From positions 1-59,962 of the forward strand of contig JADHOM010000012.1 of assembly GCA_016778985.1 (NCBI GenBank): DNA of 59,962 nt. The letters are read 5' to 3'. Both the position numbers and the translations under genes were made by a program. Positions 4,793-38,408 of this stretch are shown here, one piece after another (the first letter of the stretch is position 1; every line of letters begins with the position of its first letter). The notes beneath the pieces were generated by a model. That model searched no databases and was not told where the DNA came from. It saw nothing but the letters and a program-made list of their open reading frames with translations. The stretch comes from Alphaproteobacteria bacterium (lineage in GTDB: Bacteria > Pseudomonadota > Alphaproteobacteria > Puniceispirillales > UBA1172).

Positions 4793-5336
4793 GTTCTGGG
4801 CAGTCAGAGTGATCAGTTTACCCAATGCATTTACGCATGAGCTTGACGCCATTAATCGTGTCACAAGAGGGCATATATAAAACATCTGAATAAATACATA
4901 ACATAGAATGTCACAGACAAGAGATAACTGATCATGGCGAGTTTGATTTATTTAAGCAACAAGATGAGTCTGTTTATGTGGAAGCGATCAAGTCGTTTTC
5001 CACGTTACCAATCACAAACTTTCCCAGAAATTTTATAGAGACATTCTGCATTAACAATTTTCTCTGCCTTTGCTCAGATTATAATAATCTAAATTTTGAG
5101 ATGAATATATGTGACTATTTTGAAAATGGGAGAAGGGTTTGAGATAAAACACTTTATGTGTAGCATAGTTAACTATCGGGGGATGCAAAAGAAAATGTAG
5201 TGAATGGATTAAGAGAGTCCACAGATAGAGATGTTTTCGAATTTTACCTAAATGATAAAGCTAGAGTACTTCAGCATTGAGCCGGGAAAGATGAGTTTTT
5301 CTATTGTCATTTGGATACCGCGCGCGAGGATACTAT
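4793..5336. other. Possible decayed coding region
   Basis: In one plus frame (about 4906-5275) the sequence reads like protein: DHGEFDLFKQQDESVYVEAI, later ENVVNGLRESTDRDVFEFYL ending RVLQH before a TGA. The two stretches share a frame but are separated by three stops within 30 codons around 5141-5175, and there is no start codon. Composition and residue pattern suggest a decayed gene; the family was not recognised. Nothing else is seen in this 540-base gap. Confidence 0.35.
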
Positions 5337-5510
5337 TCACCGCCTGAATAACAAAAGCCTAAGCAGCCGCCACAACCCTCTATAAAGGATTGCCCGCAAA
5401 AATGGGTTTTGCAGTAGCCGTTGCGCCGAGGAACGCAGTGCTGGCAGCACGCGCATTGCCAGCAATATGAGAGCACAAGCCAGGATTACGATGATGACGA
5501 TCTTTATCAT
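5337..5510 (-). CDS. Possible 57-residue membrane-associated basic peptide
   Basis: A minus-strand ORF from ATG 5510 to TGA 5337. It begins with one hydrophobic helix (MIKIVIIVILACALILLAMR) followed by a strongly basic, Leu/Arg-rich amphipathic tail (LYRGLWRLLRLLLFRR). Its GC content matches the core genes to the right rather than the AT-rich left flank. No Shine-Dalgarno is visible, so it could be spurious. No family recognised. Confidence 0.4.
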   Translation of the reverse strand: MIKIVIIVILACALILLAMRVLPALRSSAQRLLQNPFLRAILYRGLWRLLRLLLFRR

Positions 5511-6708: not shown

Positions 6709-8217
6709 TTATTGATGAACCTCATACAAGGCGACCGTTCCTGTCATTTCATACGCAACCGCAAGCAAGGGCTTGCCTGTTGGACTGTCTTTCGCTGCTA
6801 TGAACTCAAGACCTTCAGGTGAATTATGCATCTCAGACGGCATCATATATCCTACCATATGCGGGTCAGACGGTAGGGTGATGTCATAAGCAAAAATAGC
6901 GTTATTGCGCTCCATACCAATAAAGGCATATGTTCTGCCGTCTATCTCACCCAGCGCCAAAGCTTCTGGCTCAGGGCCTTTATCATCAGAGCGATCATCG
7001 AACTCAGACTTGCCACCATTAGCATTAAAGACGTCAGGTGAGCGGTTTGCAATGATGTTCTCAAATGCGTTTCCGCTGTCAAAAACTAATGTTCCGTCAG
7101 AACTCCAAATTGAAAATGACCGCCCGCCATAGGCATAAATCAAGTCATGGTCACCATCACCATCGGTATCACCCATAGTAGTGGTGGTTTTAAGACGGCC
7201 AAGATTTTCTGGCTTTTGGAGAGTGTCAGCATGGGGGAACATCGTTTTATCAAGAGTTAATTTTGCCACCCGCGTTTCCTCAGAAAACCCGTCATAGTCT
7301 TTGGCATCGCCCTCATTAGCCGTAACCAGATAAGTCGCACCATTGACGTCATAGGTCGCAATCGCATCTGGCTGATACATCATTAAAACAGGCCAGCGTT
7401 TCATATTGATGCCGTTATCTTTATTTGACATATCATGGCTGCTGCGTGACACATTCTTAACACCCAAACCAACAATGGTCGCAACTTTTGCCTGTTCAAT
7501 ATCAATAACCGCAATGGAATTATTTTCCTGCAACGTCACATATGCGGTCTTGCCGCTGGCATCAAAAGCCACATATTCAGGCTCTGCATCTGCTGAAAAA
7601 CTGGCGTCAGGCTTGACTGTTCTGCCGCCAATAGGGGCTGTAAAATCAGCTAAACTAATTTCAGTAACGACGGCATTAGCTGGCCCAGATTTTAGATCAA
7701 TCAGGGTAAAGCTGCCGTCAGGATCAATACCATAATCATCTGAAGGCTCGCCCTCATTTGCTGTCAGGATATAGCGGCCATCGGGGGAGAAGGCGACGTT
7801 ATCGGGGAGCGGTCCAGTTGCAAAACTGGCGATTTCGGCGCCGCTTACATCAAATAATTTGACCATACCATCGGCATCAGCAGCATCAGCTTTGATTGAG
7901 GCCGCAACCATAGAGCCGTGAACAGCAACCGCCGTTACATCGCCGCCAGATAAGTCGAAAGCATCCATTTTTGAGATGTTAGAGACCGTTTGAATAGATA
8001 GTCTTTCAATGGTGCCAGTTTTCGATGCTGTTACCATCAAGCTGTTGGTCTCGGCATGGTAACGCAGCATTTCTGCGTAGCCTTCACCTTCGCCAATCTT
8101 GAAGTTTCCAATCTCTTTCATTTCCAAAGCTTGCGCCGAAAAGGCTGCCGCAAAGGGTGTTGAAAGAGCCAAACTTGTTGCAATAATTGCAACCTTAGAA
8201 TTGAAATATGTAGTCAT
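6709..8217 (-). CDS. Secreted beta-propeller protein (choice-of-anchor I family)
   Basis: 502 residues from ATG 8217, chosen for the GGAG six bases upstream; the upstream in-frame start has none. The N-terminal signal peptide ends near AQA (28-30). The body contains YVTN/WD-like blades: LPDNVAFSPDGRYILTANEG, AEPEYVAFDASGKTAYVTLQ and YLVTANEGDAKDYDGFSEE, plus an acidic DTDGDGDHD loop resembling a calcium site. This matches choice-of-anchor I proteins, extracytoplasmic propellers sometimes fused to or found near alkaline phosphatases. No phosphatase domain or C-terminal anchor is visible here. Function unknown; probably periplasmic or surface. Confidence 0.82.
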   Translation of the reverse strand: MTTYFNSKVAIIATSLALSTPFAAAFSAQALEMKEIGNFKIGEGEGYAEMLRYHAETNSLMVTASKTGTIERLSIQTVSNISKMDAFDLSGGDVTAVAVHGSMVAASIKADAADADGMVKLFDVSGAEIASFATGPLPDNVAFSPDGRYILTANEGEPSDDYGIDPDGSFTLIDLKSGPANAVVTEISLADFTAPIGGRTVKPDASFSADAEPEYVAFDASGKTAYVTLQENNSIAVIDIEQAKVATIVGLGVKNVSRSSHDMSNKDNGINMKRWPVLMMYQPDAIATYDVNGATYLVTANEGDAKDYDGFSEETRVAKLTLDKTMFPHADTLQKPENLGRLKTTTTMGDTDGDGDHDLIYAYGGRSFSIWSSDGTLVFDSGNAFENIIANRSPDVFNANGGKSEFDDRSDDKGPEPEALALGEIDGRTYAFIGMERNNAIFAYDITLPSDPHMVGYMMPSEMHNSPEGLEFIAAKDSPTGKPLLAVAYEMTGTVALYEVHQ

Positions 8218-8367
8218 TGTTTGCTCCAATGTTAGAATAAACAATATTTACGTTTGTCGTTACAGTATTATTTCAATTTGATGAAGAAAAGTTACAAATA
8301 CATTAAGCCATTCAAGACTAGGCTAGGCAATGCTAAGGGTATGCGTTTATCCACGTAGATAGCAAAA

Positions 8368-8404
8368 GTGAGGATTTTGATTAGCCAAAACCCTCACGTT
8401 TTTA
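8368..8404 (-). terminator. Terminator after the HxlR-linked operon
   Basis: GTGAGG (8368-8373) pairs with CCTCAC (8392-8397), and the inner TTTTG/CAAAA also pairs, giving a long stem with one mismatch. On the minus strand it is followed by TTTT; on the plus strand by GTTTTT, so it could act in both directions. It separates the cupin operon from the propeller gene. Confidence 0.65.
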
Positions 8405-8429
8405 TGTTTGCATAGACAATTCAAATGGG

Positions 8430-8468
8430 GCAATAGGAGAGAGATTTCGACTTCTCAAACCCTATTGC
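8430..8468 (-). terminator. Second hairpin after the cupin gene
   Basis: GCAATAGG (8430-8437) and CCTATTGC (8461-8468) are a perfect 8-bp inverted repeat with an inner GAGA/TCTC pairing. It lies between the cupin stop and the terminator at 8368, so it may protect the operon mRNA 3' end. Confidence 0.5.
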
Positions 8469-8522
8469 TTGTATATTTGTGACAATACATCCCTTAATAA
8501 TAGCCGCCGCTACAACTTGAGG

Positions 8523-8873
8523 TTACTCACCCCATGCGCCATGAAACTCATACGCCACGGCGACTTGGTTACCAACAACCCACGCATCATGCCCAGGCTC
8601 AATCGCGTAGGCATCACCAGCGGTATATGTAATTTCGCTACCATCATTATGGACGCATGTAATCGTGCCCTCGACTATAACGCCAACATGTTTGGCCTGA
8701 CAGCTATCAGTTCCGACAACTGGTTTGATGTCATTTGACCATTTCCAGCCAGGCTGGACCGTCAGTTTCATGATCCGCTGTCCTAAGACATTAACCGTTT
8801 CTACCCTGGCATTATTTGGTGTTGAAACTTCATCCGCATCTGTTGCAAAGTTTTTCGCTTCTAGCATATTCAT
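8523..8873 (-). CDS. Cupin-domain protein, last gene of the HxlR-linked operon
   Basis: 116 residues. The cupin 1 motif is degenerate (KHVGVIVEGTITCVHNDGSE, 61-80) and is followed by TYTAGDAYAIEPGHDAWVVG (82-101). His62 and His95 are possible metal ligands, but the usual second His/Glu pair is incomplete. Single-domain cupins include isomerases, dioxygenases and sensors; no substrate can be assigned. It follows the NTF2-like gene by 39 bases on the same strand and is followed by two hairpins, so it ends the operon. Confidence 0.75.
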   Translation of the reverse strand: MNMLEAKNFATDADEVSTPNNARVETVNVLGQRIMKLTVQPGWKWSNDIKPVVGTDSCQAKHVGVIVEGTITCVHNDGSEITYTAGDAYAIEPGHDAWVVGNQVAVAYEFHGAWGE

Positions 8874-8912
8874 TTTTCTCTCCTAACTAAATTATCGATA
8901 AAATTTGGGTGA

Positions 8913-9242
8913 TTATGACAATGTGGTAGCACCCGTTTCTACATGAATGATCAGACCATCTTTTTTCATGGCAATCATCATAACCGCTTCTCTGCTATCA
9001 TCTGGATAAGACATGAAACTATGTTCAATCATAATGTCTTCATTCTCATAGACGCAGCGTGAAGACTCCCGAATAAACTTATCATTCGCCATTATTGCAG
9101 TAGCCATTGGCGCCCATTCACCTTTTGAGAACACATCGCCAGATTTATGAAAAACTATTTTGCAATCGTCATGGAGCAATGCGAGGTAAGCATGTGCATC
9201 TTTATCATCCATCGATTTTTTGAATTGTTCATATAATTCCAT
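8913..9242 (-). CDS. SnoaL/NTF2-like small protein
   Basis: 109 residues. The pattern YEQFKKSMDDKDAHAYLALL followed by HDDCKIVFHKSGDVFSKGEW and a later beta-sheet region (SREAVMMIAMKKDGLIIHVE) is typical of the NTF2-like/SnoaL cone fold, whose members include isomerases, cyclases and hydrolases of small organic molecules. Catalytic residues cannot be assigned. It sits third from the end of a tightly packed minus-strand operon of proteins all under 130 residues, suggesting a shared small-molecule pathway. Confidence 0.65.
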   Translation of the reverse strand: MELYEQFKKSMDDKDAHAYLALLHDDCKIVFHKSGDVFSKGEWAPMATAIMANDKFIRESSRCVYENEDIMIEHSFMSYPDDSREAVMMIAMKKDGLIIHVETGATTLS

Positions 9243-9304
9243 ATCTGTGTTTCCTTTAATGTGAGCGTAAAGGTAATCGGAGCGTAAGGGTTTAGCGGCG
9301 CTAT

Positions 9305-9586
9305 CTAGCGATGCGCCCTTACAACACCGGCAACGGCATTTTGCAAAGTCATGCCAAATTGCTCGGCTGCCATATCCCGAATTGAGCTGATTTGGGGAAG
9401 TGCCGCTTGACCTGTCTCTGCATCAGGAAATTGAACAACAACCATCATGCTGTCGTCACCGGTCTGAACCATATAGGCATGGGTTGCACCCGTATCCATA
9501 ATCATCGGCATGAATTTCGCTTCAGCCTCAGCAACCATAGTGTCAGTAACTAGATCAATTGACCAATGTGATGCCGTCATAAACAT
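9305..9586 (-). CDS. Small ferredoxin-like alpha/beta (ABM-like) protein
   Basis: 93 residues of alternating beta/alpha pattern (MVAEAEAKFMPMIMDTGATH, then HAYMVQTGDDSMMVVVQFPD and AAEQFGMTLQNAVAG) resembling the dimeric alpha-beta barrel/antibiotic biosynthesis monooxygenase fold. Such proteins act as cofactor-free monooxygenases, heme-binding proteins or unknowns. The assignment is by pattern only. GGAGAG lies upstream of the ATG at 9586. Second intact gene of the HxlR-linked operon. Confidence 0.6.
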   Translation of the reverse strand: MFMTASHWSIDLVTDTMVAEAEAKFMPMIMDTGATHAYMVQTGDDSMMVVVQFPDAETGQAALPQISSIRDMAAEQFGMTLQNAVAGVVRAHR

Positions 9587-9641
9587 AATGCTCTCCTATC
9601 TATTATTTAAGTTTAAGCTACTCATTTTATAAACTTGAAGA

Positions 9642-10022
9642 TTATAGTTTCTGAACGACTCTGCCGCCCATTGTGACGAGAGGAGAATACTTCTCAAACA
9701 ACTCAAAAAAATCACCAATACGCGGCCAGCTCTGGCCTAACTCAACATGCTTTCCAAAATGCTCGTCATCAATATGTACTTCACTGACATGATAAACAAC
9801 ATGTCCTGTCGTACCCTTTGCCGGGTCCATCATATCGTTCAATTCTGGGGCTTTCGTAACATAGTATTCGAGGGTGTGGAGCTTGCCGCTTTCATCCTCC
9901 AATGAATGCGTTTCAGACATCCAGCTTGCGTGAGATGCCATCAATTCATCAACTGCTGACTCATCGCTATCCGGTACGCGCATCATGAAACCGAATGTAG
10001 TGTTACCAACTTTAAAGCCCAT
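9642..10022 (-). CDS. Hypothetical ABM-like protein of the HxlR-linked operon
   Basis: 126 residues from ATG 10022. GGAGA overlaps the upstream ATG at 10028 and sits seven bases before 10022, so the second ATG is the likely start (MGFKVGNTTFGFMMRVP). The protein has a hydrophobic strand, an acidic helix (DESAVDELMASHASWMSETH), a central strand (HTLEYYVTKAPEL) and TGHVVYHVSEVHIDDEHFGKH, compatible with a two-lobed ferredoxin-like fold as in polyketide cyclase/ABM-like proteins. No family was firmly recognised. Confidence 0.6.
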   Translation of the reverse strand: MGFKVGNTTFGFMMRVPDSDESAVDELMASHASWMSETHSLEDESGKLHTLEYYVTKAPELNDMMDPAKGTTGHVVYHVSEVHIDDEHFGKHVELGQSWPRIGDFFELFEKYSPLVTMGGRVVQKL

Positions 10023-10057
10023 TATCATTCTCCATAAAAAAAAGTGTTATTAACATA

Positions 10058-10324
10058 TTAGTTCACATAAAGCTCAGAAATGGTCGTTTCCAAAATATGC
10101 CCAGACGCTGCGATTTCCGCTCCATGTGTTTCCATAAAAATCTGCATATGCTTTTCGCTCAGAACATTCATAACAACACATACTTTTTGGTCATTATCTG
10201 GCTCATGCCCATGATAAAGCGCAAATATACCTGCTTTTCGTGCAATGGGCTGGTGGTCATAAAACGCCTTTTCCTATTCTGCAAAAGAATTACTAATTTC
10301 GAATTTTAATATCGATGTAATCAT
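10058..10324 (-). pseudogene. ABM-like small protein gene interrupted by an in-frame amber codon
   Basis: Reading ATG 10324 to TAA 10058 gives 88 codons with a single TAG at 10276-10274 (codon 17): MITSILKFEISNSFAE, stop, EKAFYDHQPIARKAGIFALY and onward to ISELYVN. The sequence is coherent on both sides, and the interrupted position lies in the pattern FAE-x-EKAFYDHQP where Trp is expected (TGG to TAG). A G-rich run (GGGGGG) about 8 nt before the ATG may serve as Shine-Dalgarno. It is the first gene of the minus-strand operon continuing at 10022 and faces the divergent HxlR gene. Either recently inactivated, or read through at low level. Confidence 0.75.
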
Positions 10325-10357
10325 TTCATACACCCCCCTTATCAAATTAAGTTTTTG

Positions 10358-10394
10358 CAAATCTGTCCGATAATCTTGGTCAACCAGATATTTG
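10358..10394. promoter_or_regulatory. Imperfect inverted repeat in the HxlR/operon divergent promoter
   Basis: CAAATCTG (10358-10365) and CAGATATTTG (10385-10394) are inverted with two extra bases in one arm. They lie between the amber-containing first operon gene and the divergent HxlR regulator, where an HxlR operator is expected. The spacer is otherwise AT-rich and featureless. Confidence 0.35.
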
Positions 10395-10513
10395 ATACAT
10401 TGAAATAATAATGTTAAGCTTTTATTATAGAAAAAACATTTACCAACTCTAAAATGATACTGGTTCGATTTTAGATATGGTTTTTACAATCTGGCTTTTT
10501 GGTGGTTTTTCAT

Positions 10514-10957
10514 ATGGACGATTTTAACAACAACTTCATCTTAAAGCGCCGCCCCATTAAATGCCCTATCGCAGCCAGCTCTGCTGTGCTGGCAGACCAA
10601 TGGTCGGTTATTGTTCTCCGCGATATCGCGTTCTTTGGCAAACGAACATTTCGTGACATTCTTTCAACCAATAATGAGAATATCCAGTCATCAACATTGG
10701 CAAAGCGGCTCAAACGGATGGTTGATATTGGTCTGCTTAGTTTTGAGAGTGATGCGTCACATGCCCAGCGCAAAATATATTGCCTGACACAAGCCGGGAT
10801 TGACCTTGTGCCGATTATGGTCGCCATGGCGGCCTGGACATCCAAACATGATATATTCAATTCTGACACAATTCAATTTCTTGAACCGCTACAGAATAAA
10901 AATAACGCAGCAATGGAAGCATTTTTGAAGAAGTTAAGGCATGACCATTTAGGCTAG
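10514..10957 (+). CDS. HxlR family winged-helix regulator
   Basis: About 147 residues from ATG 10514; a TTG 15 bases upstream is a weaker alternative. HxlR hallmarks are visible: KCPIAASSAVLADQWSVIVL near the N-terminus, FGKRTFRDILS, then TLAKRLKRMVDIGLLSFESD and the wing QRKIYCLTQAGIDLVPIM. HxlR proteins are dimeric winged-helix DNA-binding proteins, often responding to aldehydes or quinone-like electrophiles via cysteines. Only one Cys near the N-terminus (PIKCPI) resembles the redox Cys of that group. Divergent from the five-gene minus operon, which it likely controls. Confidence 0.88.
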   Translation: MDDFNNNFILKRRPIKCPIAASSAVLADQWSVIVLRDIAFFGKRTFRDILSTNNENIQSSTLAKRLKRMVDIGLLSFESDASHAQRKIYCLTQAGIDLVPIMVAMAAWTSKHDIFNSDTIQFLEPLQNKNNAAMEAFLKKLRHDHLG

Positions 10958-11037
10958 GCAAATGGATATCAAGACTTGCCTAATTGATACCTAGATGTAA
11001 TGTTAACGCGATAGGTGCTTTATCAAAGAGGTTTAAA

Positions 11038-11334
11038 ATGATAACCAAAATCTTCATTCGGACATTCCCGTCAACCGAAGAATGCGATTTATTCGAATCT
11101 CTTTTAGAAACGAGATGGCCATCACTGCTAGAAGAAACTAAAGGCGTTACATTTTCGGCTTTCCGCAATAAACAAACTCCGCATGTGTCGACGGTAATCT
11201 GGTTCTTCCCTGATGAAGCAACACAGAAGCAAGTCGAAAAATTAATTGAGGAACATATCCAAAAATTCACCAAAACCCTGTCACCAAAGACAGTGACTTT
11301 CAGCGGTGAAAAAACCCTTATGTATTCAACCTAA
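11038..11334 (+). CDS. Hypothetical 98-residue protein, ferredoxin-like fold suspected
   Basis: Start taken at ATG 11038, preceded by AGAGG at good spacing. The pattern ITKIFIRTFPSTEECDLFES, then FSAFRNKQTPHVSTVIWFFP and ATQKQVEKLIEEHIQKFTKT is beta-alpha-beta-beta-alpha-like, similar to ABM-type domains. It follows the HxlR gene by 80 bases and may be co-transcribed with it, in keeping with the small ABM-like proteins on the other side of that regulator. No function assigned. Confidence 0.6.
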   Translation: MITKIFIRTFPSTEECDLFESLLETRWPSLLEETKGVTFSAFRNKQTPHVSTVIWFFPDEATQKQVEKLIEEHIQKFTKTLSPKTVTFSGEKTLMYST

Positions 11335-11356
11335 AGATAATTTATACAAAGTCATA

Positions 11357-12112
11357 TTAACTTTCTTTTGAGAACAGAACATCCGTATTGTGGGCTTTTT
11401 CTAATTGCCATTTGATTTTGAAACCATGTGATTTCAAGACATCTATGACGCTAAGATTTTGATGATCAATTTCAATAAAAACGTCTTTGATTGAGGGCGA
11501 TTGCAGAAACTTGGAGGCACCGATTAAGACATCATGTTCTGCTCCATCAACATCAATTTTTATATGCGTTGGCATGACCTTATTTGCCTCGGCAAAATCA
11601 TCTAATGCCAGTGTCATTACTTCATATTCATAAGTTACATTTTTCTTATGTAATGATGGGATATGAGTGTCAGAATTAGCTTCGATGGTGATCATCTCAC
11701 CAGATTTTGCCCCAACTGCTGCAAATGTGAATTTAAAGCGGTCATGATTAAGTCGCCTATTTAAGGCGCAAAAATGGCTTTGATAGAGGCTACAATCAAA
11801 GCCAAAGACACGAAGATTTTTATGGATCAAAGACGATGCAAGCGACGCTTCCTGCCCATAGCTTGTTCCGACATCAAATAAAATTGACTCGTCATCCAAA
11901 TCATTGAGCTACTGGTATAATTCGGGCTCTCTGTTTTGCTTTGAAATATCAATCAGATCATCACAAATATAATGATTATTGACTGGAACAAAAAATGTGG
12001 CATTCATGTCTAACAATTTTAATGTTTTGGTTTTTGGAAGGCTTCTGAACAGTTTTGCCAAATAATAGAAAATACGAACTAACACCAACATCCTTTCACT
12101 TAAATGCCACAA
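11357..12112 (-). pseudogene. FkbM family methyltransferase interrupted by an in-frame amber codon
   Basis: The 5' part (12112-11912) ends KQNREPELYQ at TAG 11911-11909; the 3' part continues in the same frame with LNDLDDESILFDVGTSYGQE to 11357. Together they give about 250 residues, normal FkbM length. SILFDVGTSYGQEASLA is SAM-binding motif I, and HIKIDVDGAEHDVLIGA is the FkbM signature (K-D-D/E-G-x-E). FkbM proteins usually read EP..L.W(I/L) just before motif I, so the amber lies where Trp is expected (TGG to TAG). Start uncertain (TTG 12112 or ATG 12091). Members O-methylate sugars or polyketides. Likely inactivated, unless read through. Confidence 0.75.
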
Positions 12113-30592: not shown

Positions 30593-31627
30593 TCATGAAA
30601 GCGGCGCAATGGCTCCATCAGCCTCTTTTAATGCTTTGATATTGGATGAGCCAGTCAGGAACATAGCTACCCTGATCTGATCTTTCCAGATGTCCAGAAC
30701 ATGACTAAGCTGATCAGGGTGCAGGCTGCCATCAGCGGCTTCTAGTGCCTTGATAAAGACCCCTGCCGCCGCCACTATATCCGCCCCCAGCCATAAGCAA
30801 CGTGCCACATCAAGACCATGGCGGACACCGCCTGAGCCAATCAGCTGAATATCATTAACGGCATCACGCAAATCAAGTAATGCCTGACATGTCGGGATAC
30901 CCCAATCCATGAATGGAGCCATAATATCTTGGCGTCTCTGATCTGTCCGGCTGTTTTCTATGCGGGCCCAATTTGTGCCACCTAGCCCCGCAACATCAAA
31001 ATATCTAATCCCAATATCGCGCAGTCGGGTGACAGCCTTGACACTTAATCCAGCACCGACTTCTTTGATCATAATTGGGGTCGATGTGGACTTAACCAGC
31101 TTAGCCAGCATATCCATGACACCTCGCCAAGCGCGATCACCTTCGGGCTGAACCAATTCTTGCAAGGGATTAAGATGAATGGCGAGGGCATCTGGCGCCA
31201 GATCATCTATGGCTTTCAGGGCAAGCGTGAGGCCGCCTTCCTCAATGAGTTGTGCCGCCCCAAGATTACCAATAAGCGGGATATCTTGCGCTAATGCCCG
31301 CAACTGAGATTGGCTATTATTCTGACTTAATGATGCTCTTTGAGAGCCTACCCCAAAAGCCAATTTATGCGTATTGGCGATCTCTGCTAGCAGCTTATTG
31401 ATCGCATCACCACGCGCTGACCCACCGGTCATGCCACTAATCATTAATGGCGCAGCAAGCGGTTTGCCCAAAAACCGTGTTCTTGTATCAATATCGTCAG
31501 CATCACATTCTGGCAACGCCTGATGGGTTAGACGCACATGGTCAAGGCTGTTGGGGACTTGTGCCAATGCCTCAGCGTCTTTAGCAAGATCAATATGCTC
31601 ATCTTTTCTTGTGCTTAGATCAGACAT
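30593..31627 (-). CDS. fni: Type 2 isopentenyl-diphosphate delta-isomerase (FMN-dependent)
   Basis: 344 residues from ATG 31627, chosen for GGAG nine bases upstream; the ATG overlaps the end of blh by eight bases, so translation is coupled. Motifs: RKDEHIDLA (7-15), MISGMTGGSARGD, GVGSQRASL, LIGNLGAAQL, IMIKEVGAG, GLGGTNWARIE and IGSGGVRHGLDVARCLWLGA, as in FMN-dependent IDI-2. It interconverts IPP and DMAPP, supplying precursors for GGPP and so retinal. Last gene of the seven-gene proteorhodopsin/retinal cluster. Confidence 0.93.
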   Translation of the reverse strand: MSDLSTRKDEHIDLAKDAEALAQVPNSLDHVRLTHQALPECDADDIDTRTRFLGKPLAAPLMISGMTGGSARGDAINKLLAEIANTHKLAFGVGSQRASLSQNNSQSQLRALAQDIPLIGNLGAAQLIEEGGLTLALKAIDDLAPDALAIHLNPLQELVQPEGDRAWRGVMDMLAKLVKSTSTPIMIKEVGAGLSVKAVTRLRDIGIRYFDVAGLGGTNWARIENSRTDQRRQDIMAPFMDWGIPTCQALLDLRDAVNDIQLIGSGGVRHGLDVARCLWLGADIVAAAGVFIKALEAADGSLHPDQLSHVLDIWKDQIRVAMFLTGSSNIKALKEADGAIAPLS

Positions 31628-32477
31628 CTGACGCTCCATTATGATTGGCATGATGATTGGTATGATATTCGGCTTCAAAACGGGGGCGGAACAAGCTGTC
31701 AATCAACAAACTATGCGGCACTGTCAACGCCGCTAAGCCAATAAATACCACCATCATACTAGCAGGCATAGCACCTTCTGTCGGCAATAGCAGCGTATAG
31801 ATCACGATCCCAGCAAGCCAGCTGGCAACCGTAAATACTGCTGTCAGCCCAATAACCAGTCGTGGCGACAGCATCTGATTAAGCATAATCATGATACGGC
31901 TGACATGCCTGATGGTATGGATCAAACAGAAATAGATCGCAAATGCGACCAAGGCAGGCAGAACATAGATCATAACGCCAAGCCCTATCCATTCAGCAAG
32001 CCTGGCCCATAACCGCCGATCAAGCGCGCCAATCACCAGATATATGGCGGCTATCGGGAGCCAAATCCGCATGGCCACATCAATCCACACCCATAACTGG
32101 ACGGTATTACCAAAAACCAACCATTGAAAAATCTGATCCGCTGCCATGCGATCAAATTGGCTTATCCCTAAGACAACTAATCCGCCATGGCTTATGGCTT
32201 GAATATAGCGTATCCATGGGGGCAGATAGCTCAAGCTATCACCACGGCCAAAATGCCAAATGCTAAGCAAAAGAAACCCGAATAAGGAGAGTTGCGGTTG
32301 CCACAGCCAGACCCCAACGACTAGCATCGCGATCAAAATATAGATTACCAAAAAGCTAATCAGCCGCAGTAAAGATTGCCCATAGCCCATAGCAATAGCC
32401 ACCGCACCATCCATAGCGCCATGTGGCAAGCCGATCAAAACAACAGATAAGAGCGCAATGATGGTGACATAATCCAT
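31620..32477 (-). CDS. blh: Beta-carotene 15,15'-dioxygenase (Brp/Blh family)
   Basis: 285 residues, very hydrophobic with about seven to eight TM segments. The candidate iron-binding histidines are in place: His19 (GLPHGAMDG), His75 (SIWHFGRGDS), His187 and His191 (IHTIRHVSR); their spacing matches the Blh pattern. It cleaves beta-carotene symmetrically into two retinal molecules, the chromophore for the proteorhodopsin at the head of the cluster. The C-terminal end overlaps idi by eight bases. Confidence 0.93.
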   Translation of the reverse strand: MDYVTIIALLSVVLIGLPHGAMDGAVAIAMGYGQSLLRLISFLVIYILIAMLVVGVWLWQPQLSLFGFLLLSIWHFGRGDSLSYLPPWIRYIQAISHGGLVVLGISQFDRMAADQIFQWLVFGNTVQLWVWIDVAMRIWLPIAAIYLVIGALDRRLWARLAEWIGLGVMIYVLPALVAFAIYFCLIHTIRHVSRIMIMLNQMLSPRLVIGLTAVFTVASWLAGIVIYTLLLPTEGAMPASMMVVFIGLAALTVPHSLLIDSLFRPRFEAEYHTNHHANHNGASDV

Positions 32478-32488
32478 TATGTGATCGC

Positions 32489-32526
32489 TCTCATTTTATG
32501 TCTCACTTCTCATTTTATGTCTCACT
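32489..32526. repeat. 2 x 19-bp tandem repeat between crtY and blh
   Basis: TCTCATTTTATGTCTCACT occurs twice in direct succession (32489-32507 and 32508-32526), with a partial third copy continuing into the crtY 3' end. The repeat duplicates the crtY stop region and lies just before the blh start. Probably slippage; it may affect translation coupling of blh. Confidence 0.7.
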
Positions 32527-33658
32527 TTATGTCTTTCCAGGGCCGTGAAAACATGGCTCTTATAAAAGGCCATTTTGGCATCGCCATGATGATTTTCAAG
32601 CGTAATCGATGGCTTGCTAATCCTGACATAAAGAGCGCCATTTCATCACCAGTGAGCGCCTTTGCGATTGCCACAAATAGGCGTGGCGCATATTCCGGAT
32701 GTTTTTTGATGACCGCTAAAAATATCGCATCCATCCATAAATCCAGCCGTTTATGAGGCGGTTTGAAACGTAACTTGCCATAGGTTTTGTGACTAGCTAG
32801 GGCGGTTTCTATTTGCCGCTGAATAAAGACAAAGGCATAGCCAGATGATGGCCTGATAGCACCGCCATTGCCGCCAATAGCATCAACCTTATCATCACGC
32901 GGCGCCAAAAATCCCATCGGGATAACGCCTTCTTCGCGGCGCAAAACCATTGTCTTGCCAGTCTTTAGGACGTGATCACAATAATCAGAAATCGCCTTAT
33001 CATAAAAATTGTCGGGGGCGAGTTCAGGGCTAAACATTGTCGATTCGACCAGCGCCCTATTTTTCGCATATGGCAGCACATAGATAAAATGGATGCCGCG
33101 GCTTTGATCACAGCGAAAATCCATCAACACCGCACATTCAGGGTCAAAGACATCATGTTCGGTTTTAATCTCAACACCGCGAAAATGTTGCAGCATTATG
33201 CCTTTGGGTAAGTCTGGCGTCCGGCTATCGGCAATCTGGTCAAAGACGGGCAATTCAGGTTCCGCCACTAATTCAATCGCCGTTTTATGAGGCATGATAT
33301 CAGTCACCTTAGCGGCCGTGAATATGACCCCTTGCTGGCGCGCCAAAATCCGGCAATGATTAAGCCATGCCTTCGATTCAATCGCCATATAGGGGTGATG
33401 CTGTGCTGTCTGAATATGCCGATCTGTGTTTGTGATAATGGCCCAGCGCGACCATGTTTTGCGGGCAATGGACGCCGCCACCTCTAAGCCCGTGATCTCT
33501 AAGCTCTGGATCGACCAGCATCCCCAATTATGATCACGCCGCGTCTGATGATCAGGGTGGTCAATGACTGTCATTGCCATATCTGGCAATTCCGCCGCCC
33601 TTGCCGCCAGCGATAATCCAGCACAGCCACCACCCAGGATTGCCAGATGTTTTGTCAT
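32522..33658 (-). CDS. crtY: Lycopene beta-cyclase
   Basis: 378 residues. N-terminal dinucleotide-binding motif ILGGGCAGLSLAARAAE (7-23), then DHNWGCWSIQ, typical of CrtY, and VLMDFRCDQSRGIHFIYVLP, AIGGNGGAIRPSSGYAFVFI. The enzyme cyclises both ends of lycopene to beta-carotene. Its start overlaps the crtB stop by four bases (ATGA), so translation is coupled. Forty-four bases, including a tandem 19-bp repeat, separate it from blh. Confidence 0.93.
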   Translation of the reverse strand: MTKHLAILGGGCAGLSLAARAAELPDMAMTVIDHPDHQTRRDHNWGCWSIQSLEITGLEVAASIARKTWSRWAIITNTDRHIQTAQHHPYMAIESKAWLNHCRILARQQGVIFTAAKVTDIMPHKTAIELVAEPELPVFDQIADSRTPDLPKGIMLQHFRGVEIKTEHDVFDPECAVLMDFRCDQSRGIHFIYVLPYAKNRALVESTMFSPELAPDNFYDKAISDYCDHVLKTGKTMVLRREEGVIPMGFLAPRDDKVDAIGGNGGAIRPSSGYAFVFIQRQIETALASHKTYGKLRFKPPHKRLDLWMDAIFLAVIKKHPEYAPRLFVAIAKALTGDEMALFMSGLASHRLRLKIIMAMPKWPFIRAMFSRPWKDIK

Positions 33659-34644
33659 GATGGTATTACCTCAATCAACGGCAGTCCTTGAAGCGGTTTA
33701 TGCAGGTGATTTTGATGATGAATATGATGATGTTTCGGCCAGCCAAGATAGCGCCGCACGCCATGAAACCGGCTCCATAAGCGCGGCAATGTTAGGCATG
33801 ACACCCTTATTTTTGTGGCAGTGCTGGTGACTTGCCGGCCATTATGCCATTGATATTCTGCCTTCCGTAATTGCACTCCAATCTGGCGATAGACGCGGCC
33901 AGCAACCGCAATCGCTAAATGCGCGCGGATGGGCAAATACACCATGCCCTTTTCCCCACTAAGGTAATATTGATCCGCCAGATCAAGACAGCGTTTAACC
34001 GCGCCTCCGATAATGCCGCGATGTTCAATATCGGCTTTGCTATTACCGGCGGCGGCAGCAACAATCTGCTCAGGGGTTAGCCCTGCCATCCATTCGGCAG
34101 GCAAATAGCGGCGTCCTATTTTGGCATCATCTAAGACGTCTCTGGCGATATTGGTTAACTGCATCGCGATCCCAAGATCAACAGCAAAGGCAAAAGCCCG
34201 GCGATCATGACAGCCTAACACCGGACACATCAGCAATCCAACCGTGCCGGCAACATGATAGCCATAACGGATTAATTCATCTTCCCTAGCAAAAAGCACC
34301 GTCTGTTGATCGGCGATCAGCCCATCAATCAGCGCCGCGAGCACTGGACGCGGCAAATGCATTTCCTTAATAAGCTCTGATAGATCAGCATAAATCGGAT
34401 GACCCTGCCGGATATCGTCCAGAATAGCTTGCTTCAATGCCTGTAATTCTGACGAATGATCATGATCATCATCATCGGCCAGATCATCAATCAAACGGCA
34501 AAATTGATATAAGCGAGCGGCGTTATAGCCTGTTGTCTTGCCCAATAGCCGCCGCGCCCAAGCAAAGCTTTTGCCATGCTGGCTAAGCGTTTGTTCTGCA
34601 TCATGAGCAGAGGGCATATGTTCACTTGTGCCATGTTCCATCAT
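33655..34644 (-). CDS. crtB: Phytoene synthase
   Basis: 329 residues. Both Asp-rich motifs are present: LIDDLADDDDHDHS near 51-64 and IARDVLDDAKIGRRYLPAEW near 162-181, the signature of squalene/phytoene synthases. It condenses two GGPP to phytoene using Mg2+. It lies 19 bases after crtI and overlaps crtY by four bases. Confidence 0.93.
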   Translation of the reverse strand: MMEHGTSEHMPSAHDAEQTLSQHGKSFAWARRLLGKTTGYNAARLYQFCRLIDDLADDDDHDHSSELQALKQAILDDIRQGHPIYADLSELIKEMHLPRPVLAALIDGLIADQQTVLFAREDELIRYGYHVAGTVGLLMCPVLGCHDRRAFAFAVDLGIAMQLTNIARDVLDDAKIGRRYLPAEWMAGLTPEQIVAAAAGNSKADIEHRGIIGGAVKRCLDLADQYYLSGEKGMVYLPIRAHLAIAVAGRVYRQIGVQLRKAEYQWHNGRQVTSTATKIRVSCLTLPRLWSRFHGVRRYLGWPKHHHIHHQNHLHKPLQGLPLIEVIPS

Positions 34645-34663
34645 TAGCTAGCCTCTATCAAGA

Positions 34664-36157
34664 CTATACGGCGCTTTCATCCCGAATAACAAGGTTCTCA
34701 ACCACTTTGGCTGAACAGAGAACCCCCGGCATTCCTGCCCCTGGATGCGCGCCTGCCGCCGAAAAATACAGATTACCAACGCGGCGATCCCGATTATGAT
34801 AGCGAAACCATGCCGATTGCGTAAATACCGGTGCTATTGAAAAGCCAGCGCCATGCATAGATCGGTAATCTGTCTTAAAATCATCAGGGGTCATCCAGAA
34901 ATCTGAGGTGATAGACGCTTTCAGACCGGGCATAATAGTTCGGTCGAGAGCAGCAACGATCCGATCACGCAAGGCTTGTCCTTCTTCGTTCCAATCCTGT
35001 CCCCCCATAGTATTAGGCACTGGGCATAAGACATAAAAACTATCCATGCCTGCGGGGGCAAAACTGGCATCGGTTGCTGTTGGTCGATGCAGATAAAGTG
35101 AAAAATCTTCAGCTAGAATCTTTTTATTGAAGATATCATGCAACAAGGATTGATAGCGCTCTCCCATCCAGATAGTATGATGCGCAACATTAGGATAGGT
35201 GCGTTTTGTGCCAAAATATAACACAAACAGCCCCATCGAATAGCGGGTCATGGAATCAGGGATAATTTTGCCTTTGGCGCCAGCTGCTTTATCAATCATC
35301 TGTCGATATACGGTTGGCGGATCAGCGTTGCAAATCACCCGATCAGCTTCAATGACCTCACCATCCGTAGTAGTCACGCTTTCGGCTAATCGCTTATCAA
35401 TATTGATCCGCTCAATATCGGTATTGAGCCGAATATTGATGCCGTGGCGTTGCATAAGGCCGTGCAAGGCATTAACGACAGCACCAGTTCCACCCATCGC
35501 AAAATGCACCCCCCATTCTCGTTCCAGAAAATGGATCAGCGCATAGATAGAGGTTGTGTTAAAAGGATTGCCGCCAACCAGCAATGGATGAATAGAAAAC
35601 GCCTGCCGCATCAAATCATGCTTCATATAACGGTTTACCAATTGTGATACGGTCAGATGGCTTTTTAGACGTACAAGTGACGGGATTTGCGCGAGCATAC
35701 TTGTGAGCCGGTCAAATGGCTGATCAGCCAGTCGCCGGAAACCGACATCAAAAATCTGCTCAGAGGCGACCAGAAGTTTGCGATAACCTTCGCCATCATC
35801 ATCGGAAAACCGCTTAATCTCATTGATCGTATCTTCGACAGTGGCGCGATAGTCAAATTGCTCACCTGTGCTATCGAAATAAAACCGATACCAAGGATCA
35901 AGCGGCACAAAGGTGATATGATCTGAACGCTTCTCGCCAAATAGCGCAAAGAGTTCATCAAACAAAAACGGCGCCGTGATCACTGTCGGCCCCGCATCAT
36001 GGCGAAATCCATCACGCTCAAAGACCCGAGCCCGACCACCGATCTGATCAAGGCGTTCGATTAGCGTCACATCATCACCACGCGCACGCATCCTGAGGGC
36101 GGCGGCGATACCACCGAACCCGCTGCCGATAACGATTGTTCTCTTTGCTGTTGGCAT
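34664..36157 (-). CDS. crtI: Phytoene desaturase (lycopene-forming)
   Basis: 497 residues, normal CrtI length. FAD-binding N-terminus VIGSGFGGIAAALRMRARGD (10-29) with RLDQIGGRARVFERDGFRHD following, and the CrtI C-terminal signature LYFSAAGAHPGAGMPGVLCS. It converts phytoene to lycopene in four steps. It follows crtE by 25 bases in the cluster. Confidence 0.94.
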   Translation of the reverse strand: MPTAKRTIVIGSGFGGIAAALRMRARGDDVTLIERLDQIGGRARVFERDGFRHDAGPTVITAPFLFDELFALFGEKRSDHITFVPLDPWYRFYFDSTGEQFDYRATVEDTINEIKRFSDDDGEGYRKLLVASEQIFDVGFRRLADQPFDRLTSMLAQIPSLVRLKSHLTVSQLVNRYMKHDLMRQAFSIHPLLVGGNPFNTTSIYALIHFLEREWGVHFAMGGTGAVVNALHGLMQRHGINIRLNTDIERINIDKRLAESVTTTDGEVIEADRVICNADPPTVYRQMIDKAAGAKGKIIPDSMTRYSMGLFVLYFGTKRTYPNVAHHTIWMGERYQSLLHDIFNKKILAEDFSLYLHRPTATDASFAPAGMDSFYVLCPVPNTMGGQDWNEEGQALRDRIVAALDRTIMPGLKASITSDFWMTPDDFKTDYRSMHGAGFSIAPVFTQSAWFRYHNRDRRVGNLYFSAAGAHPGAGMPGVLCSAKVVENLVIRDESAV

Positions 36158-36182
36158 GGAAAAATTTATGCCTATCTCAACA

Positions 36183-37196
36183 TTAATGTGTTAGCGCTTT
36201 AATTCTGACAGAATAGATAAGCTTTTGGATAGGAGCAATAACCTGACGCATAAACTCTGGCATATTATGATAATGTTTATCAGCATCAGCCAGCATATCT
36301 TCCATCATCTGCACGGTTTTGCTAATCGCATCTGATGCCATAATCGCATCCAGCCAATGAGTCAGATCACTCGATTTGCCGTCATTTAGCCAAGTATTAA
36401 AACGGGCTTTTTCACGGAGAGATAAGTTTTCTCTAAACAGCACAATAACCGCATTGGGCGACCGTCTAAGGAGATCAGCGGCACTGGTTTCGGCCCCATC
36501 GGCACCCGCAAAGTTGAGCAAGTCATTAGCCACTTGATAGACCGAACCAATAGCCTGAAAATATTTCCGAGAAGATGGAATAATCTCTTTTTTATCGCCC
36601 ATAATGGCAATGCCTTCAATCGGCGCAATGAACAGCGGCGCCGTCTTACCCAAAATAATATCTTGATATTCCTGACGGCTAGGATAAGCGTTCTTCTCAA
36701 ACTCTTTTGCCTGACCGCTAGTAGTCGTCATCATATGCTCGCATAGAATATGCACTAATTGTGGACGGCCAGATTTATCCGCGGCCTTTGCCGCTAATTC
36801 AAATGACAGCCCGATCAGCCAGTCACCTAATGCCAGCGCCACATCGCGGCCAAATTTGAACCAGACGCTAGGCCGATTGCGGCGCATCTGATCACCATCA
36901 GAAATATCATCATGGACGAGTGAGGCATTATGCATGACCTCAATAGCGGCAGCCCAATAAAGCGCCGCGTCGGTATTACAGGTGATATGTTGGTGGGCGG
37001 ACATAGCCAATTTAGCGCGTAGCATTTTTCCACTATCGTGAAAATGATGCTGAGCCGCTTGCCCTAGAATATCGTTTGATTTTGGCAAATGCGATTTAAT
37101 CAATTTGAAGACAGAGACTTCGATACGAGAAAGATCGCTAGCAGAATGTGGCTTTAGGTCATGAGTGTTTGTCTGTTTGCTAATTACATCATCCAT
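36183..37196 (-). CDS. crtE: Geranylgeranyl diphosphate synthase (atypical second Asp motif)
   Basis: 337 residues. The first Asp-rich motif is VHDDISDGDQMRRNRPS (Asp96, Asp97, Asp100). The region of the second motif reads VYQVANDLLNFAGADG; where most prenyl synthases have DDxxD, this has Asn224-Asp225-x-x-Asn228. It makes GGPP for phytoene synthesis. The gene begins 113 bases downstream of the proteorhodopsin stop, across a strong hairpin, and is followed by crtI in 25 bases. The two changed Asp positions suggest altered metal binding or a divergent lineage; context still strongly supports CrtE. Confidence 0.88.
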   Translation of the reverse strand: MDDVISKQTNTHDLKPHSASDLSRIEVSVFKLIKSHLPKSNDILGQAAQHHFHDSGKMLRAKLAMSAHQHITCNTDAALYWAAAIEVMHNASLVHDDISDGDQMRRNRPSVWFKFGRDVALALGDWLIGLSFELAAKAADKSGRPQLVHILCEHMMTTTSGQAKEFEKNAYPSRQEYQDIILGKTAPLFIAPIEGIAIMGDKKEIIPSSRKYFQAIGSVYQVANDLLNFAGADGAETSAADLLRRSPNAVIVLFRENLSLREKARFNTWLNDGKSSDLTHWLDAIMASDAISKTVQMMEDMLADADKHYHNMPEFMRQVIAPIQKLIYSVRIKALTH

Positions 37197-37250
37197 GACT
37201 TACCACTCCTAAAATCTATCACTTGCTTATTTCTTGAATATAAAATGGAC

Positions 37251-37294
37251 GGGTCGGACAGCCCTATATAAGGGGGGGGGAGGGCTGTCCGCCC
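37251..37294 (-). terminator. Strong hairpin with 9-G run between proteorhodopsin and crtE
   Basis: On the minus strand, GGGCGGACAGCCCT (37294-37281) pairs with AGGGCTGTCCG (37265-37255) plus CCC with one bulged base, an 11-14 bp stem. The loop contains C9 (37280-37272). ATTTTATATT follows. It likely terminates most transcripts after proteorhodopsin, or protects its mRNA 3' end, while some polymerase continues into the carotenoid genes. Confidence 0.75.
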
Positions 37295-37309
37295 TGCGAT
37301 GCTTAAAAC

Positions 37310-38110
37310 TTAGGCTTTGTCAGACTCAGTTGTTGCAACGCTCCAGATGATTACACCAAACGCAATCTTGTTGAGCACGTCAGCAAGGTTGTAAATAATG
37401 TTTAGTGAATCGAAATCTGGTGTATCGCTGACCATGTAGCCGAAGAAATATCCAAGTGGATAAATCGCCCAGCCGATGGTTACAATCCACCGCATGGTTG
37501 AGAAAGCAGATTGCACAGACTCAGGTGCTTTTTCAGCATTAAGCTGTCCTGCTTCACCAGCAAAGATTTCATAAAGAATATAGGCCCAACCAAGCATACC
37601 AATGACGAAACCGATCGTAATGGTAGCTTCACCAAAGATACGAGCGTTTTCATCAGTGAAGCTGGCTTCACCAATATATCCACCAATAAGCATGACAATT
37701 GTACCAATCATCAAACGCCAGAATATGCCAGATGACACTTTCGTAATGGCGCTGAGGATGAGGTAGAACTCAATCATCAGAAGTGGCACAGTAATCAACC
37801 AGTCAATATAACGATATACGGTTGGAGTTGTTCCAGTTAGAACCCATACATCACGCATATAGAAATAGTGAACAGCAGCAACCATGGTAACCATACCAGA
37901 AACAACTAGTGAGGTTTTCCACTTGGCAGATACGCGGCCAATTTCAAGCCAGAAGAAAGCAGTAGATGCAATCAGCGCCATTGAAATTAACCAAAAAGAA
38001 ATACCAACGTAATCATCAGATTTTAGATTTACGTCAGCAAAAGCAGGCATAGCAGAAATCAGTGAAACTGGAACTGCTGCTACCAATGCATTTTTCAACG
38101 TCTTAAACAT
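37310..38110 (-). CDS. Proteorhodopsin, light-driven proton pump (green-tuned)
   Basis: 266 residues from ATG 38110, preceded by GAGGAG at seven bases. A signal peptide is followed by seven TM helices. Functional residues are visible: His81 (VHYFYMRD), proton acceptor Asp103 (RYIDWLITVPL), Leu111 at the spectral-tuning site (green rather than Gln/blue), proton donor Glu114 (MIEFYLIL) and retinal-binding Lys248 (ADVLNKIAFG). This is the D-T-E pattern of proton-pumping proteorhodopsin. It is the first gene of the retinal cluster, with a hairpin after it and a palindrome (38153-38167) upstream. Confidence 0.96.
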   Translation of the reverse strand: MFKTLKNALVAAVPVSLISAMPAFADVNLKSDDYVGISFWLISMALIASTAFFWLEIGRVSAKWKTSLVVSGMVTMVAAVHYFYMRDVWVLTGTTPTVYRYIDWLITVPLLMIEFYLILSAITKVSSGIFWRLMIGTIVMLIGGYIGEASFTDENARIFGEATITIGFVIGMLGWAYILYEIFAGEAGQLNAEKAPESVQSAFSTMRWIVTIGWAIYPLGYFFGYMVSDTPDFDSLNIIYNLADVLNKIAFGVIIWSVATTESDKA

Positions 38111-38408
38111 ATTATAACTCCTCAATATTGAGATTTATCACGACGTAATATGTGATGCTAAGCATCATATATTAAATAAATTTAAAACAAGCTAAGGCAA
38201 TGTTTTTACCCTATATATATTAGAGAAAATTAATTAACTAATTGATAATTAATAATAAAAAATATTAAAAAATTGCCCATTTTTTGCCATAATTGCGGAA
38301 AATTGCCGGAATCATGAATATCTTCATATACAATATATGTTAATTTCATATAATTACATATAATGCTTAGGTTTTAATGCTTTAGGTTTTGATATAAGGT
38401 TCAACATT
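38111..38408. other. AT-rich divergent promoter region of proteorhodopsin
   Basis: About 300 bases of very AT-rich DNA between proteorhodopsin (minus) and the small membrane protein (plus). It carries the palindrome at 38153-38167. No other gene or clear -10/-35 pair could be fixed by eye. Confidence 0.5.
38153..38167. promoter_or_regulatory. 15-bp palindrome upstream of proteorhodopsin
   Basis: TGATGCTAAGCATCA (7-bp arms around a central A) lies 43-57 bases before the proteorhodopsin start. It is either an operator or a 5' UTR hairpin; its position argues for a role in proteorhodopsin expression. Confidence 0.5.

Follow-up and report, generated by a model that had tools for sequence, protein, structure and literature searches.

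A recurrent small-protein gene cassette divergent from an HxlR-type regulator in marine proteobacteria

Positions 8523 to 10957 of a 59,962-nucleotide stretch of alphaproteobacterial DNA (contig JADHOM010000012.1, assembly GCA_016778985.1, order Puniceispirillales, here called the SAR116 order; 'the window' denotes this whole stretch) hold a run of small minus-strand genes that is divergent from a gene for an HxlR-type regulator. The arrangement recurs in related genomes with changing members, and both its recurrence and its modularity are well supported. The folds and the regulator are known; their combination and recurrence appear to be new, and a search of the open-access literature, with subscription journals and preprints outside its reach, found no description of such a cassette. 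Our working explanation, tentative at a probability of about 0.42, is that the cassette is inducible and deals with a reactive small compound: the cysteine of HxlR would serve as sensor, and the handlers would be the small barrels together with the cupin and NTF2-like proteins. Below, numbers with G are our handles for genomes and those with L for loci; G000 is the window genome and G006 a same-genus relative, the nearest used for comparison. The features of the locus are as follows.

8523..8873, minus strand: likely cupin-family gene, 116 residues (Cupin_2 match below cut-off; homologue alignment)
8913..9242, minus strand: NTF2/SnoaL-like (DUF4440) gene, 109 residues (Pfam; recurs adjoining cupin and g128)
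9305..9586, minus strand: abm93, 93 residues, probable dimeric alpha/beta barrel (DABB) fold, remotely related to PDB 2od4 (weak model, structure and sequence match)
9642..10028, minus strand: g128, 128 residues, DABB fold in a predicted model, without Pfam family
10058..10324, minus strand: DUF3764 gene, 88 codons, broken (Pfam match on read-through)
10274..10276, minus strand: in-frame TAG at codon 17 of DUF3764
10424..10453, minus strand: candidate cassette promoter, sigma-70-like, matching the consensus at 10 of 12 positions (promoter scan)
10459..10482, no strand assigned: 24-base element, putative HxlR operator (pattern recurrence)
10514..10957, plus strand: HxlR/DUF24-type regulator, 147 residues, Cys17 conserved (Pfam, alignment)
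11038..11334, plus strand: g98, small protein of 98 residues downstream of HxlR (orthologues in the G006, G037 and G013 cassettes)

Recurrence beside the regulator

Searches of the SAR116 order recovered HxlR in 16 of 136 genomes, g128 in 27 of the 101 searched for it, abm93 in 14 of 136 and the cupin in 47 of 136. The surroundings of HxlR were examined in 14 of its 16 genomes, two with weak HxlR matches (G036, G088) being left out, and in 12 of the 14 the regulator faces cassette-type small-protein genes (G000, G006, G001, G022, G031, G099, G077, G019, G087, G013, G037 and G125). Nine of these 12 cassettes have a cupin within the stretch viewed; none was seen in G001, G077 and G087, the G077 contig ending nearby. 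With three further loci (L161, L162 and L166) the cassette loci come to 15, L128 and L164 being one contig that was counted once. The HxlR loci of G035 and G057, in which the regulator adjoins an RND-type gene, were rejected as cassettes, as was the second HxlR copy of G006, which adjoins a secreted protein of 154 residues.

What recurs is a modular cassette of marine proteobacteria, a DUF24/HxlR regulator divergent from a run of genes for proteins of 70-210 residues that are mostly of known or presumed DABB fold, in a mix that varies by genome. The families of these small proteins are DUF3764, GYD, DUF3303, DUF1330, ABM-like, SCO4226-like, DUF6854, DUF6974, g128, abm93 and g98; they are joined by a cupin of the cassette's own and in many cases by an NTF2-like protein. 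The Pfam families among them presumably form one superfamily, a placement that solved structures back where they match. GYD, DUF3303, DUF1330, ABM-like and SCO4226-like proteins are cassette members absent from the window set, and DUF6854, DUF6974 and ydhR occur in related g128 neighbourhoods. Genome-wide Pfam searches of 11 genomes placed 17 of 26 matches within 3 kb of HxlR (GYD 8 of 11, DUF3303 5 of 7, DUF3764 4 of 8), where by simple arithmetic ~0.1 would be expected if the 26 matches were scattered at random over genomes of ~2 Mb. The 11 genomes were chosen for carrying HxlR and are related, covering four genera, so the 17 matches do not count as independent, and some clusters had already been seen when the three families were picked. 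The set with HxlR is conserved in this neighbourhood survey, so the objection that it might be found nowhere else fails. Conserved neighbourhood and g128 fold together support the view of the first-pass annotation that the locus is an undescribed functional unit under a divergent HxlR regulator.

A secreted-looking protein of 154-159 residues without Pfam family also recurs in cassettes and, once, beside the second HxlR copy of G006 (L161:2221-2700, L128:1940-2419, L162:6431-6904, L130:4499-4963). Near cassettes, a membrane protein of 115-120 residues with a weak MotA/ExbB match is seen repeatedly (L037:1763-2110, L129:6462-6815, L127:5680-6042, L041:746-1093); it is not in the window. Locus L043 (G086:C76) is a 4.2-kb contig with g128 and a Gfa-like gene mirrored at both ends, perhaps an assembly artefact.

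The regulator, its DNA and the member proteins

The HxlR domain (PF01638) is matched at 47.0 bits against a cut-off of 20.8, and translation probably starts at 10514 rather than at an upstream TTG, because the homologues fit 10514. Cys17 is kept in all 17 aligned sequences, three of them from the non-cassette loci (G035, G057 and the second G006 copy). The accessible portion of PMC7835342 describes Cys11 of Bacillus HxlR as conserved and the cysteine as a sensor of electrophiles or oxidants in other family members; formaldehyde sensing by the B. subtilis protein also needs Lys13 (PMC7835342, same portion). The window protein thus shares the HxlR-type winged helix and the N-terminal cysteine with B. 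subtilis HxlR, a formaldehyde sensor, and with electrophile-sensing MarR/DUF24 regulators such as YodB, whereas it reads Cys-Pro-Ile and does not have the crosslinking lysine that PMC7835342 places two residues past the cysteine.

HxlR is divergent from the nearest cassette gene at all 15 cassette loci, as judged for G031, G013 and the L164-type contigs from the stretch retrieved. The pattern ACNNGTT-N13-GGTT occurs in 10 of the 15 divergent intergenic regions, spanning 24 bases every time though other spacings were allowed, and Markov-shuffled controls gave a mean of 0.09 regions and a maximum of 2; since the pattern was drawn from the alignment beforehand, this is support and not proof. In the window the element (10459-10482) lies just upstream of the minus-strand promoter-like site (10453-10424). 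The two top-scoring promoter-like sites of the 3.2-kb region are both in the divergent intergenic stretch, and the scan returned 13 sites against 10.1 in shuffles, the site at 10424-10453 standing out by position and score only. Together with a 13-pair hairpin after the cupin gene, the promoter sites would fit a single five-gene transcript.

Three of the proteins (128, 93 and 98 residues) have no Pfam family over cut-off in a scan of the seven genes, an NCBIfam scan of the cassette proteins gave nothing further over cut-off, and an Rfam scan of 8000-11500 found no family at gathering score. For g128, AlphaFold2 with 29 sequences gave a confident model (predicted local distance difference test, pLDDT, 94.9; predicted template-modelling score, pTM, 0.84) with a beta-alpha-beta-beta-alpha-beta ferredoxin-like order that matches DABB structures, predicted as a single chain. 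Its top two Foldseek matches are YbaA (2okq) and ArqI/PA0709 (8ecx; E 2.1e-3, probability 1.00, template-modelling score, TM, 0.50). VIA-align places it nearest the ABM-annotated 3fgv (Z 10.4, root-mean-square deviation 2.4 over 94), followed by 2od6 (Z 10.0), 2op5 (Z 9.6) and SnoaB (Z 9.5), with olivetolic acid cyclase, FasU and RslO4 also among the matches. A DABB fold for g128 is supported by the confident model and these matches, as had been expected, and an unrelated fold was not obtained. LsrG, SnoaB, olivetolic acid cyclase and other DABB enzymes have the same fold at ~10% identity to g128.

The abm93 model is weak (pLDDT 67.2 from 4 sequences). It has the g128 order of elements, with 2od4 as its second match (TM 0.71). 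The window protein by itself reaches 2od4 at a sequence E of 0.005, and its family profile at 2.1e-31, largely due to one row, L124, that is near 2od4; abm93 probably also has the DABB fold. A profile search with g98 found no convincing solved relative. Of the proteins proposed to be ABM-like, those at 9305-9586, 9642-10028 and 11038-11334 have no Pfam ABM (PF03992) match at E <= 1; the likeness holds at the level of fold only, confidently for g128 and weakly for the 93-residue protein.

Among the remaining members, the SnoaL-like or NTF2-like assignment of 8913-9242 is confirmed by a DUF4440 match above cut-off (28.4 bits against 25.2). The 116-residue protein is likely a cupin, judging by a Cupin_2 match of E 1.6e-4 whose score stays below the curated cut-off (21.7 bits against 27.2); Cys58, His62, His95 and Asp96 are invariant in 13 aligned homologues. 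The DUF3764 gene (PF12594) scores 57.9 bits with its TAG read through and 50 bits with one TAG inside in a second search, and has an intact copy in G006.

Several members also match orphan marine crystal structures. The accessible part of PMC2557142 gives 2OD5, 2OD4, 2OD6, 2OP5 and 2PGC as structures of novel ocean-sampling clusters. A DUF6854 protein adjoining g128 in G020 matches 2PGC (E 4.2e-122), a DUF6974 protein adjoining g128 in G086 matches 2OP5 and 2OD6, and the HxlR neighbour in G019 is a member of the family matching 2OD4. DUF6854 directly adjoins HxlR in L162 and L166; the matched structures therefore belong to proteins of the cassette type. In G005, DUF6974 adjoins g128 and a cupin, and none was seen beside an HxlR gene; 2OD5 drew no match from the cupin, NTF2 and DUF3764 proteins searched. 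The four entries 2OD4, 2OD6, 2OP5 and 2PGC, structures of the Joint Center for Structural Genomics (JCSG) for Global Ocean Sampling clusters, are thus matched by cassette-type proteins, more distantly in the case of abm93 and 2OD4. They carry no function, and the literature searched links none of the four with a regulator or with the other three.

State of the window copy and occurrence elsewhere

Open reading frames of the claimed extent exist for four minus-strand genes (8523-8873, 8913-9242, 9305-9586 and 9642-10028), for the divergent HxlR gene (10514-10957) and for the 98-residue protein (11038-11334). The count of five working minus-strand genes was wrong, because the 88-residue gene at 10058-10324 is interrupted by the TAG at 10274-10276. 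Three features flank the cassette proper.

8368..8397, minus strand: hairpin of 13 pairs, terminator-like, on the 3' side of the cupin gene
11357..11899, minus strand: FkbM-type methyltransferase as a truncated frame, the longer one being interrupted by an in-frame TAG
5126..5358, plus strand: remnant of an SCO4226-like gene, intact in G006

The longer FkbM frame (11357-12095, minus strand) contains a TAG that the relative's copy does not have, and only its C-terminal 180 codons are open; FkbM adjoins the cassette in G006 and G005 too, in the latter beside cupin, g128 and DUF6974. The SCO4226-like remnant has several stops where G006 has an intact gene (L037:1105-1440), and two small genes of the G006 cassette are absent from the window. 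Two in-frame TAGs, a remnant and two missing genes give the window cassette the look of recent damage, provided that the stops do not come from sequencing error. Between G000 and G006, six genes (the NTF2 gene not among them) have nonsynonymous divergence (dN) of 0.017-0.063 against synonymous divergence (dS) of 0.19-0.61, which at the sequence level is purifying selection. The cassette cupin of G019 (L124:5824-6200) likewise has an in-frame TAG. A recoded TAG, suggested by DUF3764, FkbM and this cupin, is disfavoured because TAG ends 9 of the 44 called window frames of at least 150 residues (one of the 44 is without a stop in view) and because the stops in the third broken gene are of more than one kind.

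Beyond the order, the g128 alignment was run against named genomes in one scan; of 104 confirmed relatives, 80 were kept. Those inspected are proteobacterial, and marine where the source is recognisable: SAR116, a Pelagibacteraceae, a HIMB59 record, many alphaproteobacterial single-cell records, Rhodobacterales and some gammaproteobacterial metagenome-assembled genomes (MAGs; L155-L160, covered in part). HxlR, DUF3764, cupin, NTF2 and g128 stand together in the window, G006, G125, L161, L162 (Rhodobacterales bacterium LSUCC0387) and L166. The L162 proteins are 36% (g128) and 37% (HxlR) identical to those of the window, and L162 and L166 have a secreted-looking 157-residue protein between g128 and DUF3764. 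L161 is filed as a gammaproteobacterial MAG and was not counted as spread to another class, because its 4.6-kb contig is near-identical in places to the SAR116-order contig L164/G125. A class-wide search with the cupin alignment matched 12 of 385 genomes; among the carriers, G165 and G392 (1.4 Mb) have an NTF2-like gene and one or two more small genes alongside the cupin, and in G171 the cupin is accompanied by DUF6854, an SCO4226-like protein and a protein of NTF2 size that matches no Pfam family. Viral carriage was rejected, since neither the g128 nor the abm93 alignment yielded a confirmed relative in two scans of viral contigs.

Most unnamed alphaproteobacterial copies of g128 lie in another conserved neighbourhood, with a different neighbour of 100 residues and without the cassette; this arrangement is strongly conserved over ~25 alphaproteobacterial records (L171-L192, L194, L199, L212). 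Elsewhere in the window, the list of reading frames suggests by eye carotenoid/retinal-type genes adjoining a rhodopsin-like seven-helix protein at 30593-38125.

Proposed working and rival explanations

In the mechanism that we propose, a reactive small organic compound would modify the HxlR cysteine, and HxlR would then act at the 24-base element next to the divergent promoters. Binding and conversion of the compound, by cofactor-independent oxygenation, isomerisation or hydrolysis, would fall to the small barrel, cupin and NTF2 proteins. The analysis shows the genes and their divergent order, the recurrence, the conserved element and cysteine, the predicted g128 fold and the decay in this genome. 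The chemistry of the compound and the class of inducer are what we infer, and the same holds for control of the promoters, an enzymatic rather than a binding role and a compound common to all members. The earlier proposal of a pathway for an aromatic or quinone-like compound would follow solely from HxlR family chemistry and the conserved N-terminal cysteine: the unit stands, while its chemistry comes without a recognised oxidoreductase, glyoxalase, ring-cleavage or transport gene among the seven genes of the Pfam scan. A more speculative elaboration, which we regard as a long shot, is that co-made DABB halves of different families pair into hetero-barrels, the shuffled members tuning one shared pocket to various marine reactive compounds; such pairing would explain the many dissimilar DABB families per operon and the loss of single members.

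Several observations weigh against an inducible cassette of this kind. Composition is highly variable, and g128 and the cupin are frequently found without an HxlR gene, so they do not belong strictly to one pathway. No recognisable catabolic enzyme or transporter occurs among the seven genes scanned. The textbook cupin metal motif has HxH, which the cassette cupin does not, offering a single histidine (His62) in motif 1. An N-terminal cysteine is common across the DUF24 family and points to no particular inducer, and the 24-base element, defined after the alignment had been viewed, is absent from five of the 15 regions. Finally, the TAGs in DUF3764 and FkbM and the SCO4226-like remnant suggest that the window cassette may be on its way out in this genome.

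The last point could be taken further: the cassette might be a decaying relic here and functional in relatives, as the two stops, the remnant and the two missing G006 genes would suggest. The other frames are intact and conserved, however, and single stops are explicable by sequencing or assembly error, and we consider a relic rather unlikely. Much less probable still, and disfavoured, is fortuitous clustering on a variable genomic island without shared function. Spread is indeed patchy, flanking and cassette genes are missing from most same-genus relatives, and the flanking choice-of-anchor gene is present solely in G000 and G006 among 12 genomes of the genus; yet the same families meet the same regulator in several genera and two orders, with the 17 of 26 matches near HxlR. 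DABB, SnoaL-like and cupin folds serve as cyclases and cofactor-free oxygenases in polyketide pathways, and a gene set for natural-product tailoring or cyclisation would accommodate both the g128 matches to SnoaB, olivetolic acid cyclase, FasU and RslO4 and the SnoaL-like/DUF4440 member. No synthase, carrier protein or ketoreductase was found among the scanned proteins or, by eye, among the window reading frames, though, and the cupin-NTF2 core also occurs in 1.4-Mb genomes (L229, L230); genomes of that size rarely carry polyketide-type pathways, and this origin is improbable.

The strongest rival is that the small barrels, instead of being enzymes of one pathway, resemble ArqI of Pseudomonas aeruginosa in having a binding or signalling role: induced by stress, they would be modified by an aldehyde or bind one and then act on a partner enzyme. 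In the accessible portion of PMC12274486, ArqI (PA0709) is the ABM-domain protein of a glyoxal-induced operon, with a glyoxal-derived arginine adduct, and synthesis of the Pseudomonas quinolone signal (PQS) is inhibited through PqsA. The arqI-gloA2 operon (PMC12274486, same portion) is also among the nearest known systems, with a small, aldehyde-induced ABM/DABB protein structurally near g128; that portion holds no occurrence (0) of HxlR. Foldseek has ArqI in its top two for g128, and cassette members are gained and lost singly across genomes, both of which favour such a role. The match is at superfamily level only (TM 0.50), however, with many enzymes matching equally, SnoaB at Z 9.5 for example, and arqI-gloA2 has a glyoxalase, whereas the window cassette has none in the seven genes scanned and instead has several small barrels, a cupin and an NTF2-like protein. 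On this evidence an ArqI-like role seems unlikely, and an inducible cassette for a reactive compound remains our preferred explanation.

Overall, the cassette is a new regulated unit from known folds and, as far as shown, no new kind of mechanism. SAR116 and planktonic Rhodobacterales are abundant in the surface ocean, and a recurrent operon that unites at least seven families of small proteins of unknown function places them all in a common context, while also tying four orphan crystal structures to a regulator. The function of these small families thereby becomes testable, via the inducer of the HxlR regulator.

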